Origin: Xenorhabdus griffiniae | GTDB lineage: Bacteria; Pseudomonadota; Gammaproteobacteria; Enterobacterales; Enterobacteriaceae | DNA: 43,070 nucleotides | Assembly (NCBI RefSeq): GCF_015163655.1 | Contig: NZ_JADEUF010000023.1 | Location: forward strand, 1 to 43,070 | Direction of reading: 5' to 3' | The notes under the pieces: generated by a model | The model's input: only the letters and a program-made list of their open reading frames with translations | Told to the model about the DNA's origin: nothing | The model's database searches: none | Position numbers and translations under genes: made by a program | Shown: positions 4,905 through 22,532 of the stretch, piece by piece | Numbering within the stretch: the stretch's first letter is position 1 | Layout of the letters: every line of letters starts with the position of its first letter

Positions 4905-4919
4905 ATGAGGAATTCATAT

Positions 4920-7900
4920 ATGGACTCGTATATAAATCATAAGGTTTTTCGGCTTTCTATTATCATGTATTCGCTTTTTTTACCCTTTACTCCTATGAGT
5001 GCGCTTTCAGCGGGTGAAAAGATTCAAGAGAATAGAATACCTTTACAAGAGTCAGAAAATGAAAGGTACGCCAATCAGGCGCGGAATAAGCAAGCTATTC
5101 TTGATGCGGAAGCCGGTGTCATCGCACAAAATATCCACAAGATGAGTAATATTTTATCCTCTTCCCCATCACAATTAACCGAGCAAGCAAAATCCTACGC
5201 TCTGGGGAAAATCAATGGTGCAATATCCACAGAAACACAAAAGTGGTTATCCAGATTTGGTACAGGCAGGATTAATCTCTCCATCGATAAAAAAGGAAAA
5301 CTGGATAGCAGCGCTTTGGATTTGCTGTTACCTCTCTATGACAATAAAGCGGATTGGCTATTTTTCTCTCAGGTAGGTTATCGCCGTCACGATAGCCGCA
5401 ATACCCTAAACCTTGGTCTTGGTGGACGTTATTTCACGCCTGATTGGATGTATGGCTTAAATACTTTCTTTGACAATGATTTTACGGGACAGCATCAACG
5501 GTTAGGTGTTGGGGGAGAAATCTGGACTGATTATGTTAAATTATCGGCCAATACTTACTGGCGCGTGAGCAAATGGCGTGATTCTCCCAAAGAACTGGAC
5601 TATGAAGAACGACCAGCTAACGGCTACGATATTAATGGTGAATTTTTCTTACCCGCCTATCCAAACCTTGGTGGTAAGTTGAGTTATGAACAATACTTTG
5701 GCGATAACGTCGCCCTATTTAATCGGAAAACCAGGCAGAAAAACCCTAATCTTGCCCGTATTGGCCTGAATTATACCCCGATTCCACTGATGACAATGGG
5801 CGTGGATTATAAGTTCGGCAGCAGTGGACACAGTGAAGGGCTCTTCCTGGCCAATTTAAATTACCATTTTGGTATACCTTTTGCTGATCAGATTTCACCA
5901 AGTCATGTTGCAGCTATGCGCACACTGATGGGTAGCCGTTATGATCTGGTGACAAGAAACAACAACATCGTATTGGATTACAGGAAAAAGCCTGTGTTCA
6001 GCCTGGTCTTGCCAAATACCTTAAACGGATACAGTACCCAACATGTCCAAATCACGCCGAATATTACCGCTGAGGACAAACTGAAAAAATTATCATGGCA
6101 GGCTAACGAAGAATTCCGTAAAAACGGGGGAACTATCATCCCTCATGGCAAATCTGTTGAACTGGACTTGCCGAAATATTCTGTTAAGGGGATAAACAGC
6201 TATACCCTGTCTGCGACTTCTGAAATAACGGGCAGCAACAAGCCCATGACATCTTATATGAATGTGGTTGTTGAACCTTTTGCCATTAAAGAGCAAAGCA
6301 TCAAACCCAGTGGCACAGGCCCTGTAATTTCCAATGGCAAACCGGCTTATGATCTGGCAGCAACCATCACCTATGGCAATAAAAACAATCCGCCGATTAC
6401 AAACCAGGCAATACCGAAAGTGCAATGGAGCCTCGAGCCAGCAGATAAACATGCAACATTAGTCTGGGACTCAGCAGGCATGACCAATGATGCCGGCCAG
6501 TTAACTGCAACGTTGAGCAGCACTCAGCCACTAGATCCGAAAACAAAGATTTATCTGTCAATGGATGAGCAACCCAAATTGGAGATAAAAGGCGACAAGC
6601 CACTGAATTTCACCAATCTTGGTGATGCCATTCTAGCCAAAAATTTTGTATTTGAGCAAAAAGCGCCTTATGAGGCCATGGAACACAAGCCAATCACTGT
6701 GACTGCGGCTGTGTTCGATCTCAATGGCAACCCAATCAATAAAAAAATAGACATGAACTTACAATGGAGCGTCGAACCTACTGATATACCAGGATTATCT
6801 GTTAAGCCCGCTCCCGGCTATGAGAACTCATCTGATCAGGATGGTAATATTAAAGCGATTGTGACCAGTACCCAAAGCGCGAAAGGTGTTAAAGTTGGGG
6901 TATTGATTAATGAGCAACGTCAAAGCTTCTCTGAACCATTCGATTTTGTCACACCAAAAAGCCTGAAGTTTGCATTCGGTGTAATATCGCAGTCACCTAC
7001 AGGGCCATTAACTGCTAATGGAAAGGAACGCTATACTTATAAGGTGCCAGTTATCGACGTAGACAGCAAACTTCCTCTGAAGAATCAATCTCTTGGTAAA
7101 CTGGCAGTGGAACTATTGAGTGCTGAACAGCAAAATTATGTATTCCCAGACAAAACTAAGATTGAGTTTCCTGCAAATCCAATCACCGATGCTGAAGGTT
7201 ATGTGACTCTCTCGATGACAAGCCAAGTCGCTATGGATGGTCTTTATTTTACCCTGTCCCCAGATCCATCCAGTGGCAATGAGGCAGATAGCATACAATC
7301 CGAACCGGTAAATTTCGATCCTATTCCGGTGCCGGTGGGGATTTTTATGGGTACGAAAGTTTCAAATAACAAGAAATATATTCAGGAGCAGGGAAGGCCG
7401 TATAACGTCCATGGAGATCTCGTAATTCAATTGACGCAAGATGGAAAAAACAATTTGTTTACGGACTATAACTTCCCTGATGGTGATGGTAACATTATCA
7501 GTCCGGTCACCTTCAAATCTTCCAATCCCAAATTGGTGAGCGTAGATACCGATCCAAGCGGTAACGGAAATATCACATTCTCCGAAAAACATTTCTCCAA
7601 TGAGAGCTGGCCGGTAACAGTGACACTCATCAAAAAGACTGATCAGGGTATCAAGTATGGTTATTACTATACTTTCAACCCACGAAAATACATACTTTTC
7701 GCCGATAACGAGCCAACTGTTGATTTGAATATGGCTGATATCTGTCCGCAAGTGCAATGGAATCAAAACCGTCTCAATGGCCAGATAGCACATGATCCGA
7801 ATGTGTTTGATATAGGAGCAACTCCGCAAACGACCACACCGACTTCACTAAGTTATGAATATGACAAAGAGCATTTCCCTGACTTTGGACTTCAACATCT

Positions 7901-8093
7901 TAGTCAGAACATAGTGGGGACAACTATATTAAGAACATTTATTCCGGGAGATAAATCCACACAATATACAAAAGTGATGTATGGATATGACTATCTTACC
8001 AGAAAAGGTAAAAAGGCAACTGAATATGCATCTAAACAGCCGTCGATACCCATGTGTGTAATACGCGTTGATGGTTATGGCGAAATTCCTTAA
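4920..8093 (+). CDS. Intimin/invasin-type inverse autotransporter adhesin
   Basis: Surface adhesin of the inverse autotransporter class (type Ve secretion), in which an N-terminal outer-membrane beta-barrel exports a C-terminal passenger. I choose the ATG at 4920 (1057 residues) because GAGGAA lies seven bases upstream; an in-frame ATG at 4905 lacks this. Residues 1-31 form a signal peptide ending SALSA. The barrel spans about 105-320, starting WLSRFGTGRINLSI and ending NYHFGIPF, followed by the family linker with RYDLVTRNNNIVLDY. The passenger of about 700 residues holds at least three Ig-like repeats, marked by WSLEP, WSVEP and related segments. Two cysteines near the C-terminus (about 942 and 1046) could form the disulfide of an invasin-type tip. 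No LysM domain was seen. The receptor cannot be read from the sequence. Confidence 0.92.
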   Translation: MDSYINHKVFRLSIIMYSLFLPFTPMSALSAGEKIQENRIPLQESENERYANQARNKQAILDAEAGVIAQNIHKMSNILSSSPSQLTEQAKSYALGKINGAISTETQKWLSRFGTGRINLSIDKKGKLDSSALDLLLPLYDNKADWLFFSQVGYRRHDSRNTLNLGLGGRYFTPDWMYGLNTFFDNDFTGQHQRLGVGGEIWTDYVKLSANTYWRVSKWRDSPKELDYEERPANGYDINGEFFLPAYPNLGGKLSYEQYFGDNVALFNRKTRQKNPNLARIGLNYTPIPLMTMGVDYKFGSSGHSEGLFLANLNYHFGIPFADQISPSHVAAMRTLMGSRYDLVTRNNNIVLDYRKKPVFSLVLPNTLNGYSTQHVQITPNITAEDKLKKLSWQANEEFRKNGGTIIPHGKSVELDLPKYSVKGINSYTLSATSEITGSNKPMTSYMNVVVEPFAIKEQSIKPSGTGPVISNGKPAYDLAATITYGNKNNPPITNQAIPKVQWSLEPADKHATLVWDSAGMTNDAGQLTATLSSTQPLDPKTKIYLSMDEQPKLEIKGDKPLNFTNLGDAILAKNFVFEQKAPYEAMEHKPITVTAAVFDLNGNPINKKIDMNLQWSVEPTDIPGLSVKPAPGYENSSDQDGNIKAIVTSTQSAKGVKVGVLINEQRQSFSEPFDFVTPKSLKFAFGVISQSPTGPLTANGKERYTYKVPVIDVDSKLPLKNQSLGKLAVELLSAEQQNYVFPDKTKIEFPANPITDAEGYVTLSMTSQVAMDGLYFTLSPDPSSGNEADSIQSEPVNFDPIPVPVGIFMGTKVSNNKKYIQEQGRPYNVHGDLVIQLTQDGKNNLFTDYNFPDGDGNIISPVTFKSSNPKLVSVDTDPSGNGNITFSEKHFSNESWPVTVTLIKKTDQGIKYGYYYTFNPRKYILFADNEPTVDLNMADICPQVQWNQNRLNGQIAHDPNVFDIGATPQTTTPTSLSYEYDKEHFPDFGLQHLSQNIVGTTILRTFIPGDKSTQYTKVMYGYDYLTRKGKKATEYASKQPSIPMCVIRVDGYGEIP

Positions 8094-8155: not shown

Positions 8156-8215
8156 ATTATGCTTTTAAGCCATGCCAACAACCGAAAAATCCGAGGAATT
8201 TTGGCCTGCTTTGGC

Positions 8216-8221
8216 TATAAT
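8216..8221 (+). promoter_or_regulatory. Candidate -10 element of ppa
   Basis: A consensus TATAAT lies 43 bp before the ppa start. No good -35 hexamer was found at the usual spacing, so only the -10 is proposed. Confidence 0.4.
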
Positions 8222-8264
8222 ACCTCGCACTCCATTTTGGTTTAAAATTGAAGGAAACCGTTTT

Positions 8265-8795
8265 ATGAGCCTGAATAATGTACCGGCTGGCAAAGAGCTA
8301 CCTGAAGATATTTATGTCATCATTGAGATCCCAGCGAATGCAGATCCTATCAAATATGAAGTAGACAAAGAGTCTGGTGCCCTGTTTGTAGACCGTTTCA
8401 TGTCAAGTGCAATGTTCTACCCATGTAACTACGGCTACATCAACAATACCCTGTCTCTCGATGGTGATCCCGTTGACGTATTGGTGCCAACACCATACCC
8501 ATTGCAGCCAGGTTCTGTTATCCGCTGCCGTCCGGTTGGTGTCCTGAAAATGACTGACGAATCCGGTGAAGACGCAAAACTGGTCGCTGTTCCTCATACC
8601 AAACTGAGCAAAGAATATGATCACATCAAAGATGTGAACGATCTGCCAGAACTGCTGCGTGCCCAAATCACTCACTTCTTCGAGCACTACAAAGATCTGG
8701 AAAAAGGTAAGTGGGTCAAAGTTGATGGCTGGGATAATGTTGAAGCCGCTAAGGCCGAGATCCTGTCTTCTTTCGAACGCGCTACGAAAAAATAA
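8265..8795 (+). CDS. ppa: Inorganic pyrophosphatase
   Basis: Cytosolic soluble inorganic pyrophosphatase (family I, hexameric in Enterobacterales). It hydrolyses pyrophosphate and so drives nucleic-acid and aminoacyl-tRNA synthesis. The ATG at 8265 gives 176 residues, the same length and N-terminus ([15 protein letters not shown]) as E. coli. It has AAGGA upstream; the longer in-frame reading from 8172 runs through the promoter region. Metal-binding aspartates lie in [10 protein letters not shown] (about 65-74). The [16 protein letters not shown] and [15 protein letters not shown] segments are near-identical to E. coli. A bidirectional terminator separates it from ytfP. Confidence 0.98.
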
Positions 8796-8817
8796 TCCTG
8801 ACAGGTAGTTACAAAAA

Positions 8818-8848
8818 AACCTCTGTCCCGATTAAGGGCAGAGGTTTT
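8818..8848. terminator. Bidirectional terminator between ppa and ytfP
   Basis: Stem AACCTCTGTCCC (8818-8829) / GGGCAGAGGTT (8836-8846) with one bulged base. A T-run follows on the plus strand, and the A-run before it becomes a T-run on the minus strand. It lies between the convergent ppa and ytfP stops. Confidence 0.85.
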
Positions 8849-8861
8849 GTTTACCTCTAAT

Positions 8862-9209
8862 TTACTCTTCTTCGTGGCGTTTCAACCAGTCACCACAGGT
8901 TATCCGATGCAATCCGTCAACAGGCAATTTATAGAGGTAGATCCATGCCTTACCATACGGTGTTTCAATCAGTTCCCTTTCATACTCCTGAGCGTTTTTT
9001 TTCAACTCATCCAATTCTGTCAGGATGGATGGTGTAATACGATAAACTTCACATTCGATTGTTCCTTCACCACGGATAACCGCCGGATAGTGCCCCAGAT
9101 CATAAATTTCATAACCATCTAATCTGTGTTCTCCCAACAATTGGGCATCCGTCATCCAGTGATGATTGCCTTGTTTTCGCCTCAGGCTACCATAAACAAT
9201 AACTCGCAT
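8862..9209 (-). CDS. ytfP: Gamma-glutamylcyclotransferase-fold protein YtfP
   Basis: Small cytosolic protein of the GGCT/AIG2-like fold, 115 residues (113 in E. coli YtfP). The N-terminal VYGSLRRKQGNHH is the family's substrate-loop signature, and the acidic ELDELKKNAQEYERE segment contains the position of the general base glutamate. Its actual substrate in enterobacteria is not established. It lies two bases after tamB on the same strand, so it is the last gene of tamA-tamB-ytfP. Confidence 0.93.
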   Translation of the reverse strand: MRVIVYGSLRRKQGNHHWMTDAQLLGEHRLDGYEIYDLGHYPAVIRGEGTIECEVYRITPSILTELDELKKNAQEYERELIETPYGKAWIYLYKLPVDGLHRITCGDWLKRHEEE

Positions 9210-18390: not shown

Positions 18391-19011
18391 TTACAGAATT
18401 TCCAATAATTCCACTTCAAAGATCAGCGTGCTATAAGGCGGGATGGATGCCCCAGCGCCACGCTCACCATAAGCCAGATTATGTGGAATATAGAGTTCCC
18501 ATTTGGAGCCAACTGGCATCAAGGTCAATGCCTCAATCCAACCTGGGATCACGCCGCTAACAGGGAATTCTGCCGGCGTACCGCGCTGCACCGAACTATC
18601 AAATACCGTGCCATCGATCAGGCGGCCTGTATAGTGAACACGAACACGGTCAGTACGGGCAGGGATAGCGCCATCACCTTGTGTCAGGACAGAAAATTGC
18701 AGACCAGACTCTGTGCTGCTGACACCTTCACGCTGAATATTTTCTGCCAGGAATTTTTTGCCTTCTTCTGCCATCGCCTGCTGACGTTCACGGCGAACGC
18801 TATCAGCACGTTCATGTATCTCACGTAGCGCACGATGTAGTTCTTCTACCGGAATAGCAGGAGAACGGCTTTCCAACGCATCACACAGCCCTGCCAACAG
18901 TGCTTCTGGTTCTAACCCTTGTAAACCGGATTCCTGTAATTGTTGTCCAACCTGCAAACCAATACCGTAACTTGCGCGTGCTTCAATAGACTCAAAAGAA
19001 GGTTTTGTCAT
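18391..19011 (-). CDS. fklB: FKBP-type peptidyl-prolyl isomerase FklB (FKBP22)
   Basis: Cis-trans prolyl isomerase of 206 residues, the same length as E. coli FklB. An alpha-helical dimerisation domain (about 1-90) is followed by the FKBP domain (about 105-206), with [18 protein letters not shown], the pocket tryptophan in [22 protein letters not shown] and a final VELLEIL. There is no signal peptide, so it acts in the cytoplasm. In E. coli fklB lies close to rplI; here the HipA-like/DUF3037 pair sits between them. Confidence 0.97.
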
Positions 19012-19161
19012 GAAAGTACCTGTTATTAAATGAGTGAAAGCTCAAGCATAACAGCACTGTCTGGATGGGTAAACGCGTTAAAGAATTAATTGAATTATCA
19101 TCTACCATAATATTTGATAGCGAAATAGGCTACAACGCAATAAATAAACTTCAAATTCCTA

Positions 19162-19980
19162 CTATAGAGACAATCTTGCAAAATCAACGATAGATTTTTC
19201 ATCATCATGCCAAACATGGCAAATATTGCGCTCAACCAATGTCTTCTGTATCTCATCAAAAGCCTTAGACTCTAATTGACTAAGATCCTCTTTTACATAA
19301 ACCGTGAATAAAACCTTTCTTACATTCAATATATTTTCACTTGCAGCTCTGCTGATCCTGGCTACCCAAGAATCACAATGTTCAATCATTCCACTTGCCG
19401 CCTGCTGAGCAAATGCAAGGGGTTTTATGACACAAACGATTTCTTCTTTCTGTTTAGCAACAAATGGCAAGGTAAATTTAGATAATTCACCCTCAATTTT
19501 TTCTTTTTTAAATAAATTTCTTAAGTCATCATAACGATTCAACCTGTCTTTCAGTTCTCTGGTAAGAATGTTCTCCTTACGTTCTTTCGTATATTCTGAA
19601 TGATTGATGAACTTGTTATAAATATCAGTTAGCTCTTGACTTGGGTTCTCAGATAACACCACCCTTGGAGGACTAAAAAAGAAAATAGATTCTCTAGGTG
19701 CGATGAATGTATTAAAAAAATCGGCAACTTTATAAGGATCATGAATATCGCGAATCACCCCTTGGGCAAACATTAATTCCTTATGAACAGCATCCCTGGC
19801 ATAAGGAAACACTGAATCATCCCGAAAAAAATGACGAACTCTACTATTATTACTTTTTGTTAGCTTAAAATGGAATTCGCGTCGTTTAGGCACACACATG
19901 ACTATACCAATATTGACAAACTCTTCCGTCTCGGCAAAAGGGGCATATCTCACAATACTGTATAAGCATGGATTAGTCAT
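19162..19980 (-). CDS. DUF3037 domain protein
   Basis: Protein of 272 residues. Its N-terminus, CLYSIVRYAPFAETEEFVNIGIVMCVPKRREFHF, carries the hallmark of the DUF3037 family (YSIVRY followed by EFVNVG-like); no biochemical function is established. The C-terminal half has no motif I recognise. There is no signal peptide or membrane segment. AGGAG lies nine bases before the ATG. The ATG forms an ATGA overlap with the natural end of the HipA-like gene upstream, so the two are meant to be co-translated. DUF3037 genes commonly sit next to HipA-like genes (known association). The gene is clearly more AT-rich than fklB and rplI on either side, suggesting acquisition. Confidence 0.8.
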   Translation of the reverse strand: MTNPCLYSIVRYAPFAETEEFVNIGIVMCVPKRREFHFKLTKSNNSRVRHFFRDDSVFPYARDAVHKELMFAQGVIRDIHDPYKVADFFNTFIAPRESIFFFSPPRVVLSENPSQELTDIYNKFINHSEYTKERKENILTRELKDRLNRYDDLRNLFKKEKIEGELSKFTLPFVAKQKEEIVCVIKPLAFAQQAASGMIEHCDSWVARISRAASENILNVRKVLFTVYVKEDLSQLESKAFDEIQKTLVERNICHVWHDDEKSIVDFARLSL

Positions 19981-20759
19981 ATAATGCTACTCCTAAACTC
20001 TTCTGAGTATCCTCTGTTTAGTATCTTCTTTATATTATTAACAATATCTTCATAATCAAGATGTTCGTACTACTCACTTGGAATTTTAATAATCGAATAA
20101 CTGAAACTATATAGAATATTTTCTACAACATCATCTAATTCGTACTTATCTACCCTATCAAAATCCCAATCTCTGTTGATTGGAGAAAAAACATGGTAAT
20201 CAAATTCATTCGATTCACAAGGTGACATAAATGCCAAATTATGATCTATGAGATAATATCTATTTGTTTTATAATTATAAATAATATTTACATTGCCTCC
20301 TTTTGCAGTCAAATTTCTATCGGAATTATTGATTAAGCGATCAAAGAAGTATATTAACTTTTGATAACTTTTTTCTATCTTTGTATGCGCTTGATGATAG
20401 GTGATACAGGCTGAGTCAGGAATATATTTTGTAACAAACGCATGTCCTTCTGAAAGTTCTCCAGTTAAACAGGGCATGAATGCCAACAATTCTCTCGATA
20501 TATAGACAACTTTAATATCTGGCAGTGGAAGATTGATACTCTTAGCAAGATAAGAAGCTATCAGCTCATGAATAAGTTGGAGTTTTGGCATCTTAGGCTG
20601 GGATTTTACAACATATAAACCCCCATCATCACATTTACACAAATATGGTTCCGTTGAGCCATCTGACATTTTCCTAATTATTTCAACTACATTAATCACA
20701 TCCGAGAGCATAGCTGTTCTATAACCTCTATTGCTGACATCAATTTTACACGTACTCAC
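19977..20759 (-). pseudogene. HipA-like kinase-fold gene interrupted by an in-frame amber codon
   Basis: The reading frame from a GTG at 20759 codes 229 residues up to a TAG at 20070-20072. The same frame then continues for 30 sense codons (starting YEHLDYEDIVNNIKKI) to a TGA overlapping the DUF3037 ATG. The product resembles the HipA_2-type kinase-like family: an N-terminal lobe with LYVVKSQ (the ATP-binding lysine); a catalytic-loop-like FFDRLINNSDRN (about 149-160); and a metal-binding-like IDHN (about 186-189). It may start at the ATG at 20711, where family similarity begins and a GAGG lies 13 bases upstream. The short form keeps both catalytic motifs, so it may still be active. The family role is unknown; classic HipA phosphorylates glutamyl-tRNA synthetase. 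Confidence 0.7.
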
Positions 20760-20899
20760 CCTATATCAAGCAAGTTGAAACGAAGTACCTTACTTTAATT
20801 TGATTAAGATTTCGTAAGTTATCAACGAAAATGTGGAGGATATTCAGCTTTTAGCAAGCAACAGGTATGGAGAGAAAATAATTTTGCGACACAAAACAA

Positions 20900-20926
20900 A
20901 AAACGCCGGCAATGCCAGCGTTTTTT
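20900..20926 (-). terminator. rpsF-rplI operon terminator
   Basis: Stem AAAACGCCGGC (20900-20910) / GCCAGCGTTTT (20914-20924) with one internal mismatch. A-rich sequence on the left provides a T-tail on the minus strand, about 30 bp after the rplI stop. A T-run on the right would also stop plus-strand transcription. Confidence 0.85.
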
Positions 20927-20953
20927 GTCACATGTTCTTCAGCTAATCAACGA

Positions 20954-21406
20954 TTAAGCTTCTGGAACGATGTTAACGTTCAACTGTGCAAATACATCGC
21001 TGTGTACTTGGAAGTGAACTTCGTGTTCACCAACAGTACGCAGAACGCCGTTAGACAGGCGAACTTCGCTCTTAGATACTTCAACGCCAGCTGCAGTTAC
21101 TGCATCAGCGATATCACGAGTACCGATAGAACCGAACAGTTTACCTTCGTCACCCGCTTTAGAAGCGATAGTGACAGAACCCAGCGCACTGATTTTCTCT
21201 GCACGAGCTTGTGCTGCTGCCAGAACGTCAGCCAGTTTAGCTTCCAGTTCTGCACGACGAGCTTCGAAGAATTCGATGTTTTTCTTAGTTGCAGGAACAG
21301 CTTTGCCCTGTGGTACTAAGAAGTTACGGGCATAACCCGCTTTAACGTTAACTTGGTCACCCAGGCTACCCAGGTTCGCTACTTTATCAAGCAGAATAAT
21401 TTGCAT
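20954..21406 (-). CDS. rplI: 50S ribosomal protein L9
   Basis: Large-subunit protein that binds domain V of 23S rRNA and helps keep reading frame. It has 150 residues, near E. coli's 149. The N-terminal domain begins [17 protein letters not shown] and has the family signature around [14 protein letters not shown] long connecting helix (about 41-75) leads to the C-terminal domain ending NVNIVPEA. Last gene of rpsF-priB-rpsR-rplI. Confidence 0.99.
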
Positions 21407-21999: not shown

Positions 22000-22398
22000 T
22001 TACTCTTCAGAATCCCCAGCTTCATCAGCATCATCAACCAGATCTTCTTCCAAGACCAGATCACGGCTGCGACGTTCGTCTTTAGCCTTAACCATTGGTG
22101 ATGCTTCAGTTATTGCGTGCTTAACGCGCATAACCATGCTACGGATAACGGCGTCGTTGAAGCGGAAGTTAGTTTCCAGCTCATCAATCGCTTCTTGTGG
22201 CGCTTCAACGTTCATCAGAACGTAGTGAGCCTTGTGCAGTTTGTTGATTGGGTAAGCCAGTTGACGACGACCCCAGTCTTCCAGACGGTGAATCTGACCT
22301 TGCGCGTTAGTGATAGTCGCACTGTAACGCTCGATCATGCCCGGAACCTGTTCGCTTTGGTCAGGATGGACCATAAAAACGATTTCGTAATGACGCAT
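22000..22398 (-). CDS. rpsF: 30S ribosomal protein S6
   Basis: Platform protein that binds S18 and the central domain of 16S rRNA. I choose the ATG at 22398 (132 residues, [17 protein letters not shown]), because AAGGAG lies eight bases upstream and this matches other S6 starts. The ATG two codons earlier is too close to that site. The acidic C-terminal tail ([16 protein letters not shown]) resembles the region that RimK extends with glutamates in E. coli. First gene of its operon. Confidence 0.98.
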
Positions 22399-22423
22399 TA
22401 GCATTGCTCCTTACGGATTATTA

Positions 22424-22458
22424 GCCTCCTGTCAGGGTCAGCCGTGGCCCATGGAGGC
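22424..22458 (-). promoter_or_regulatory. Candidate S6:S18 autoregulatory leader hairpin
   Basis: In the rpsF leader, GCCTCC and GGAGGC arms (22424-22429 and 22453-22458) enclose an inner GGG/CCC stem with a CCG-containing stretch. It lies 25 bp before rpsF. Known S6:S18 leaders in bacteria use a hairpin with an exposed CCG to bind the S6-S18 complex. The fit is structural and by position only. Confidence 0.45.
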
Positions 22459-22532
22459 AAGGAACGTGTTTAGTACGGCTGAAAAATCGACGCGTCACTA
22501 TACCCGTACAATACAAAAAACTCAATAAAGAA

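Follow-up and report, generated by a model that had tools for sequence, protein, structure and literature searches.

In this Xenorhabdus griffiniae chromosome, the rplI–fklB gap contains a copy, broken and probably decaying, of a defence system already known, the HipA-family kinase/DUF3037 pair HipAD (DS-6; PADLOC candidate PDC-M66). What looked like an orphan pair is thereby tied to a two-gene system described in 2025-2026, and it sits in a housekeeping gap, not in a prophage. An in-frame TAG closes the kinase gene early, an uninterrupted copy occupies the same site in a congener, and in a second genome of the species nothing has been inserted there. The likely explanation is that a prophage-type HipAD lies in a chromosomal slot between rplI and fklB, that its kinase was recently interrupted and would now be inactive or weakened, and that the intact HipD would persist as an orphan antitoxin.

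The kinase/DUF3037 pair between rplI and fklB

The window, by which we mean the whole analysed stretch of 43,070 nucleotides, has two minus-strand ORFs in the rplI–fklB interval, where a sequence-only reading had placed two genes between conserved housekeeping genes. The features of the locus are:

18391..19011, minus strand: fklB, flanking core gene
19069..19076, minus strand: conserved box in front of fklB, presumed to belong to the fklB promoter; it bounds the slot on one side
19162..19980, minus strand: hipD, DUF3037 protein of 272 aa, intact (Pfam DUF3037 1.6e-20; PADLOC PDC-M66B 6e-17; PHROG 5137 3.5e-87)
19977..20069, minus strand: stretch past the TAG, its frame open for 30 codons, with the final TGA overlapping the hipD ATG
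20070..20072, minus strand: in-frame TAG that closes the kinase ORF early, the one TAG inside the HipA_2 match
20070..20759, minus strand: hipA, HipA_2 kinase ORF, 229 aa from GTG (Pfam HipA_2 1.8e-67; PADLOC PDC-M66A 7.2e-17)
20789..20818, no strand assigned: imperfect palindrome-like stretch upstream of hipA, seen by eye and also present in G016, a genome of the same genus
20896..20928, minus strand: rplI terminator hairpin, the other edge of the slot, an inverted repeat with 16-nt arms (fold z-score -4.9)
20954..21406, minus strand: rplI, flanking core gene

Profile searches agreed with the family assignments made from the letters. Both the HipA_2 and the DUF3037 match exceed their Pfam cut-offs and are therefore not due to chance, and the DUF3037 gene lies directly downstream of the kinase on the same strand. 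The hipA product covers positions 1-205 of the 240 of the HipA_2 profile, and its translation contains the three motifs on which the kinase assignment had been based (VVK, NNSDRN and IDHN). Among 15 aligned homologues, K52, D147, R148, D172, H173 and N174 are invariant. A kinase fold is predicted from this Pfam match. In comparisons with solved structures, the kinase gave only weak matches to HipT/HipA_C chains (E 0.025-0.038) and the DUF3037 protein had no clear relative (best E 0.0069, to a lectin chain, with no stretch passing singly). Translation of hipA probably begins at the ATG at 20711-20709, since the kinase of G016 starts likewise, and the encoded product would then have about 213 residues.

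The pair is positioned between the rplI terminator and the box upstream of fklB. As the earlier reading had noticed, its composition differs from that of both neighbours, with a GC content of 0.30-0.36 in windows within the pair versus 0.44-0.51 on both sides. The rplI hairpin was not listed by a consensus terminator scan, and a promoter scan gave no excess (9 found, 9.3 expected). The palindrome-like stretch, which an inverted-repeat scan did not report, is a possible operator. The ORFs adjoining the pair are housekeeping genes, with no reverse transcriptase seen among them. No convincing direct repeats that could mark an insertion were found in the scanned surroundings of the pair, and the window contains no tRNA or tmRNA as an integration site. 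A cI remnant in the gap, as the scar of a prophage, was rejected: searches with 11 cI-like proteins gave chance-level matches only (best E 0.14).

Relationship to described HipA/DUF3037 systems

Both window proteins match the PADLOC candidate defence pair PDC-M66, although the kinase match, unlike a complete PDC-M66A/B pair, spans only positions 12-174 of 270. The pair also matches the phage families PHROG 3162 and PHROG 5137. The name HipAD/DS-6 goes back to Brenes and Laub 2025, an entry in the reference list of PMC13092281. The portion of PMC13092281 that treats the system uses the new name HipAD for DS-6, a HipA-family kinase with a DUF3037 protein, and reports phage protection, which was lost when a predicted catalytic kinase residue was changed. 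In the same portion, AlphaFold3 predicts a complex and a weaker contact with DNA, and the mode of action proposed is that of a toxin-antitoxin system, possibly an abortive one (PMC13092281). According to the excerpts of PMC12548924 that concern the Retron-Sda1 operon, deletion of HipA abolishes defence against Bas51, deletion of DUF3037 is toxic, the reverse transcriptase and ncRNA are dispensable for the HipA/DUF3037 defence, and PADLOC assigns this HipA/DUF3037 pair to PDC-M66.

The statement that DUF3037 has no known function is accordingly out of date, an antitoxin role having been published for HipAD/DS-6 and Retron-Sda1. By analogy with these two systems and the PDC-M66 match, the suggested toxin-antitoxin or defence profile appears well placed. 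In the picture given by the published relatives, HipD (DUF3037) would restrain the HipA-type kinase in a working system, phage infection would free the kinase from HipD, and the freed kinase would phosphorylate a host target and stop growth as an abortive defence. By homology, the window pair would once have worked as such a HipAD; with the TAG in place, its kinase would be inactivated or weakened beside a persisting, intact HipD.

The window pair resembles HipAD/DS-6 in its HipA-family kinase, DUF3037 partner and conserved catalytic residues, but differs in its truncated kinase, in its position in a housekeeping gap and in the DUF1829 region of DS-6B, for which window HipD gave no Pfam match at E up to 1; this feature of the DS-6 subtype may be subtype-dependent. 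With the Retron-Sda1 unit it shares the two-gene HipA/DUF3037 arrangement, but here housekeeping genes flank the pair and the kinase is interrupted. HipBA and HipBST are similar in that a kinase toxin would be held by a partner. Unlike in those systems, no HipB-like HTH antitoxin beside a HipA_C kinase is present, as Pfam gives only DUF3037 and HipA_2 above cut-off. The literature that we searched contains no experiments on a HipAD copy from this genus.

An early stop codon in hipA

The TAG lies 89 nt before the hipD ATG, at a nearly invariant alignment column, and removes about 31 conserved C-terminal residues, a loss that would leave the kinase inactive or weakened. Since the catalytic motifs precede the TAG, activity may remain. 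The stretch past the TAG looks like the C-terminal tail found in intact relatives. Set on its own against the corresponding part of G016, it is of equal length and 89% identical at the nucleotide level, with four synonymous and six non-synonymous changes in 30 codons and no length change. That the tail has decayed so little counts against a kinase that is inactive or weakened.

The open frame past the TAG closes with a TGA overlapping the start codon of hipD, so that the 4-bp ATGA junction described earlier belongs to the intact relatives (77 of the 80 viral loci described below, and G016) and not to the present ORFs, for which an overlap would arise only past the TAG. Nor do the two genes form one translational unit, as had been proposed, because the kinase frame is interrupted. 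In G016 and in the same 77 viral loci, a complete kinase frame reaches hipD and overlaps it slightly; this is not so here, and for this reason the window pair is classed as a broken copy by descent and not as a working system. An amber-suppressor tRNA was considered and rejected: a strict pattern occurred at 5 places in the genome itself (4 in the reversed control), and ARAGORN called none of them a tRNA, a weak negative.

HipAD pairs in related bacteria and in phages

DUF3037 and HipA_2 were each found in 4 of the 29 genus genomes searched, and the pair is therefore not core. In a sample of 394 genomes of the order, DUF3037 was above cut-off in 13, and in all 13 HipA_2 adjoined it, which rules out DUF3037 as a solitary gene among the matches above cut-off in this sample; a fourteenth DUF3037 match, below cut-off, had no adjacent HipA_2. 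HipA_2 itself was above cut-off in 19 of the 394 genomes, six of them without DUF3037. Among the 13 order pairs, a stop inside the kinase match occurs only in the window copy, and the HipA_2 matches of G016 and G027, both of this genus, are free of stops. Samples of the class (369 genomes) and the phylum (398) contain, besides the window copy, two copies of the full-length type that are clearly broken or partial: G837 (two pieces, one stop) and G645 (a partial match).

Among viruses, 128 HipD relatives were confirmed, of which 80 were kept, forming 38 clusters at 95% identity. A kinase ORF lies directly upstream of hipD in 78 of these 80, and in 77 it overlaps hipD, by 4 nt or by more if an earlier start codon is taken. 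A cI-like repressor is located just upstream in at least 48 of the 80 loci (75 had room for one), a lower bound obtained with a cI model built from four proteins. The closest relatives outside this site are likewise phage and prophage copies (50-58% identity), often right after a cI-like repressor. In phage PhiR5_1, the pair right after cI is annotated as HipA toxin and HipD antitoxin; the two proteins are only 46% and 51% identical to those of the window, a point against the favoured explanation. The PhiR5_1-type pair is present in 283 of 5,426 E. coli genomes, with an identity of at least 99% in 282. Within the genus, G027 carries a HipAD copy beside a gene that looks repressor-like by eye, with a HipD 53% identical to that of the window. 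Two very diverged pairs of a kinase and a DUF3037-like protein, in L084 (4706-6444; G008) and L082 (4227-5832; G165), also come right after a gene judged repressor-like by eye and form a distant branch of this arrangement.

Broken copies are rare among the viral loci. By a strict count, which asks for a single frame reaching at least profile position 235 of 242, the kinase is whole in 78 of the 80 loci of a kinase-based set; in a hipD-based set, which shares many contigs with the former, it is whole in one frame in 77 of 80. In L187 (2297-3866; the same contig as L199), a frameshift breaks the kinase and leaves hipD whole. Its kinase ORF ends at profile position 210, against 211 of 242 in the window, and likewise 89 nt before hipD, whose product is 44% identical to window HipD. 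That two copies broke independently at this position could be coincidence, or loss of just that tail may be favoured. In L162 (1976-4828; the same contig as L269), an insertion with a transposase-like ORF, recognised by eye, splits the kinase beside a whole hipD, and L123 has a whole hipD with no kinase found. The opposite state is seen in L190 (3183-4827), where a whole kinase ORF accompanies a hipD broken in two frames, and in L222 (2498-3630), where it accompanies a short hipD. Both argue against toxin-antitoxin logic and are odd for such a pair unless their kinases are inactive. In addition, L056 (Salmonella phage SW-37, 2501-3004) has a kinase ORF of 167 aa from the first start codon with a full hipD and is possibly broken near its 5′ end, and L045 (Haemophilus influenzae HI-5290) has a short HipD match (residues 171-217) with small ORF pieces, partly masked, that are perhaps a HipAD remnant.

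These copies bear on two other explanations of the window pair. The shortened kinase of about 213 residues could still be active, which would make the pair an attenuated HipAD. All invariant catalytic-type residues lie before the TAG, hipD is intact, and the diverged L187 kinase ends at the matching position. We regard this as unlikely, because the lost segment is conserved (the kinase continues to position 235 or beyond in all loci of the kinase-based viral set apart from the contig of L187 and another that carries an insertion), the TAG falls at a nearly invariant column, and two cases, the window and L187, are few.

HipD might also be kept for its own sake, as an orphan antitoxin that neutralises the HipA of incoming HipAD prophages or counters post-segregational killing (anti-addiction). 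Such a role would suit an intact HipD beside a broken kinase, the presence of a HipAD in G027 and the three of 80 viral loci (L187, L162 and L123) in which a whole hipD accompanies a kinase that is frameshifted, split or not found. However, L190 and L222 show the reverse, the 53% identity to the HipD of G027 is possibly too low for cross-neutralisation, and the TAG state is represented by a single genome; we consider this explanation quite improbable.

The intact copy in a congener

In G016, too, the pair lies at this site; its kinase, of 244 aa, is uninterrupted and overlaps hipD by 4 nt. Between the window and G016, dS is 0.435 for hipA before the TAG, 0.531 for hipD, 0.456 for fklB and 0.147 for rplI, and dN/dS is 0.107 for hipA before the TAG and 0.120 for hipD. 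The low dN/dS values and a dS near that of fklB indicate that both genes have been under constraint and that the TAG is younger than the split between the window and G016. By these codon comparisons, the pair has changed roughly as fast as fklB while purifying selection acted on it, and the TAG is recent on that scale. The pattern is compatible with vertical inheritance followed by losses, and also with an import that included flanking DNA. A tree built from fklB and the flank downstream of it does not place the window genome (G000) and G016 as sisters; it even groups G000 with G009 and not with G060, a genome of its own species, and recombination or uneven data may be involved. In G060 (fklB dS to the window 0.063) the rplI–fklB gap is empty and measures 145 bp.

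The comparison with G016 also favours, to some extent, a more trivial explanation, namely that sequencing or assembly introduced a false TAG into what is an intact HipAD. The TAG is known from one draft assembly of 272 contigs, which also weakens the case for an interrupted kinase, and the frame beyond it is open, G016-like and ends at the normal junction. Modern assemblies seldom contain wrong single substitutions, and we give such an error a slightly lower probability still than a retained antitoxin. If the interruption is accepted, as we think likely, the intact copy of G016 and the interrupted copy of the window form a natural comparison that can show whether the C-terminal tail of the kinase is needed for toxicity or defence.

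The rplI–fklB gap as a cargo slot

We measured the rplI–fklB gap, stop and start codon included, in 30 genomes of the genus. In the window, the interval between the two genes spans 19012-20953. The gap is short (139-277 bp) in 20 of them, including G060, and in G021 it measures 463 bp and contains no ORF of 60 aa. The remaining nine gaps are occupied by genes. G000 and G016 have HipAD there, while G004, G005 and G026 contain a MazE/MazF-like pair and G025 a RelB(DinJ)/YafQ-like pair; in G012, G015 and G024 the cargo consists of GDPD, IMPase-like and CMD genes. Toxin-antitoxin pairs of three unrelated types are hence found in 6 of the 30 gaps (HipAD in two, MazEF-like in three, DinJ/YafQ-like in one). 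Seven of eight cargo proteins searched had a Pfam match; for MazEF the search covered the G004 pair, with which those of G005 and G026 were compared codon by codon. This variable cargo, and the empty site in G060, agree with the mobile-looking slot suspected from the sequence. For this gap alone, three unrelated toxin-antitoxin types look like more than an accident and point to a small chromosomal slot where such modules come and go.

The edges of the slot are well conserved. In all 11 gaps compared, of which 10 are lengthened and one is empty, the rplI terminator has its T-run at a distance of 51-55 nt, counted from the first base of the rplI stop codon. The fklB box begins 64-65 nt upstream of the fklB ATG in 10 of these 11, with a variant in G024. 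Between G004 and G005, dS is 0.27 for fklB, 1.04 for mazF and 1.48 for mazE; as both maz values are far above that of fklB, one of the two genomes probably acquired its pair separately. Little or no excess was seen for G004-G026 (mazF 0.79, mazE 1.15, fklB 0.78) or G005-G026 (0.77, 0.88 and 0.76). Among 28 loci from elsewhere in the family, 14 have fklB at a distance of 857-1,419 nt after rplI, and in the other 14 no fklB was seen within reach, so that the slot claim is restricted to this genus. The main text of PMC3091717 contains none of the terms fklB, rplI, hipA and toxin-antitoxin.

A housekeeping role tied to the ribosomal protein or prolyl-isomerase genes, for which the position between rplI and fklB and a dS like that of fklB might speak, is contradicted by the distribution and hardly credible: the pair is absent from the gap in 28 of the 30 genus genomes, one of them of the same species, a terminator and an upstream box separate it from both neighbours, and its close relatives reside in phages and prophages.

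A broader proposal would be that the slot of this genus swaps unrelated modules (HipAD, MazEF-like, DinJ/YafQ-like), probably through recombination in the flanking core genes, that its HipAD came from a prophage cI operon, and that two diverged HipAD copies lost the same C-terminal segment under selection for a weaker kinase or for keeping the antitoxin alone, and not through chance decay. Taken as a whole, this proposal is speculative and rather unlikely.

Other observations in the window

In E. coli K-12, chpS/chpB lie between ppa- and ytfP-like genes. In the window, neighbours that look ppa- and ytfP-like by eye (8172-9209) lack chpS/chpB, while three congeners have the MazEF-like pair in the rplI–fklB gap. 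At 4905-8093, a 1062-aa ORF resembles, by eye, an intimin/invasin-type outer-membrane protein. An RpsF leader was found at 22396-22479 on the minus strand (Rfam RF02893, 89.2 bits).
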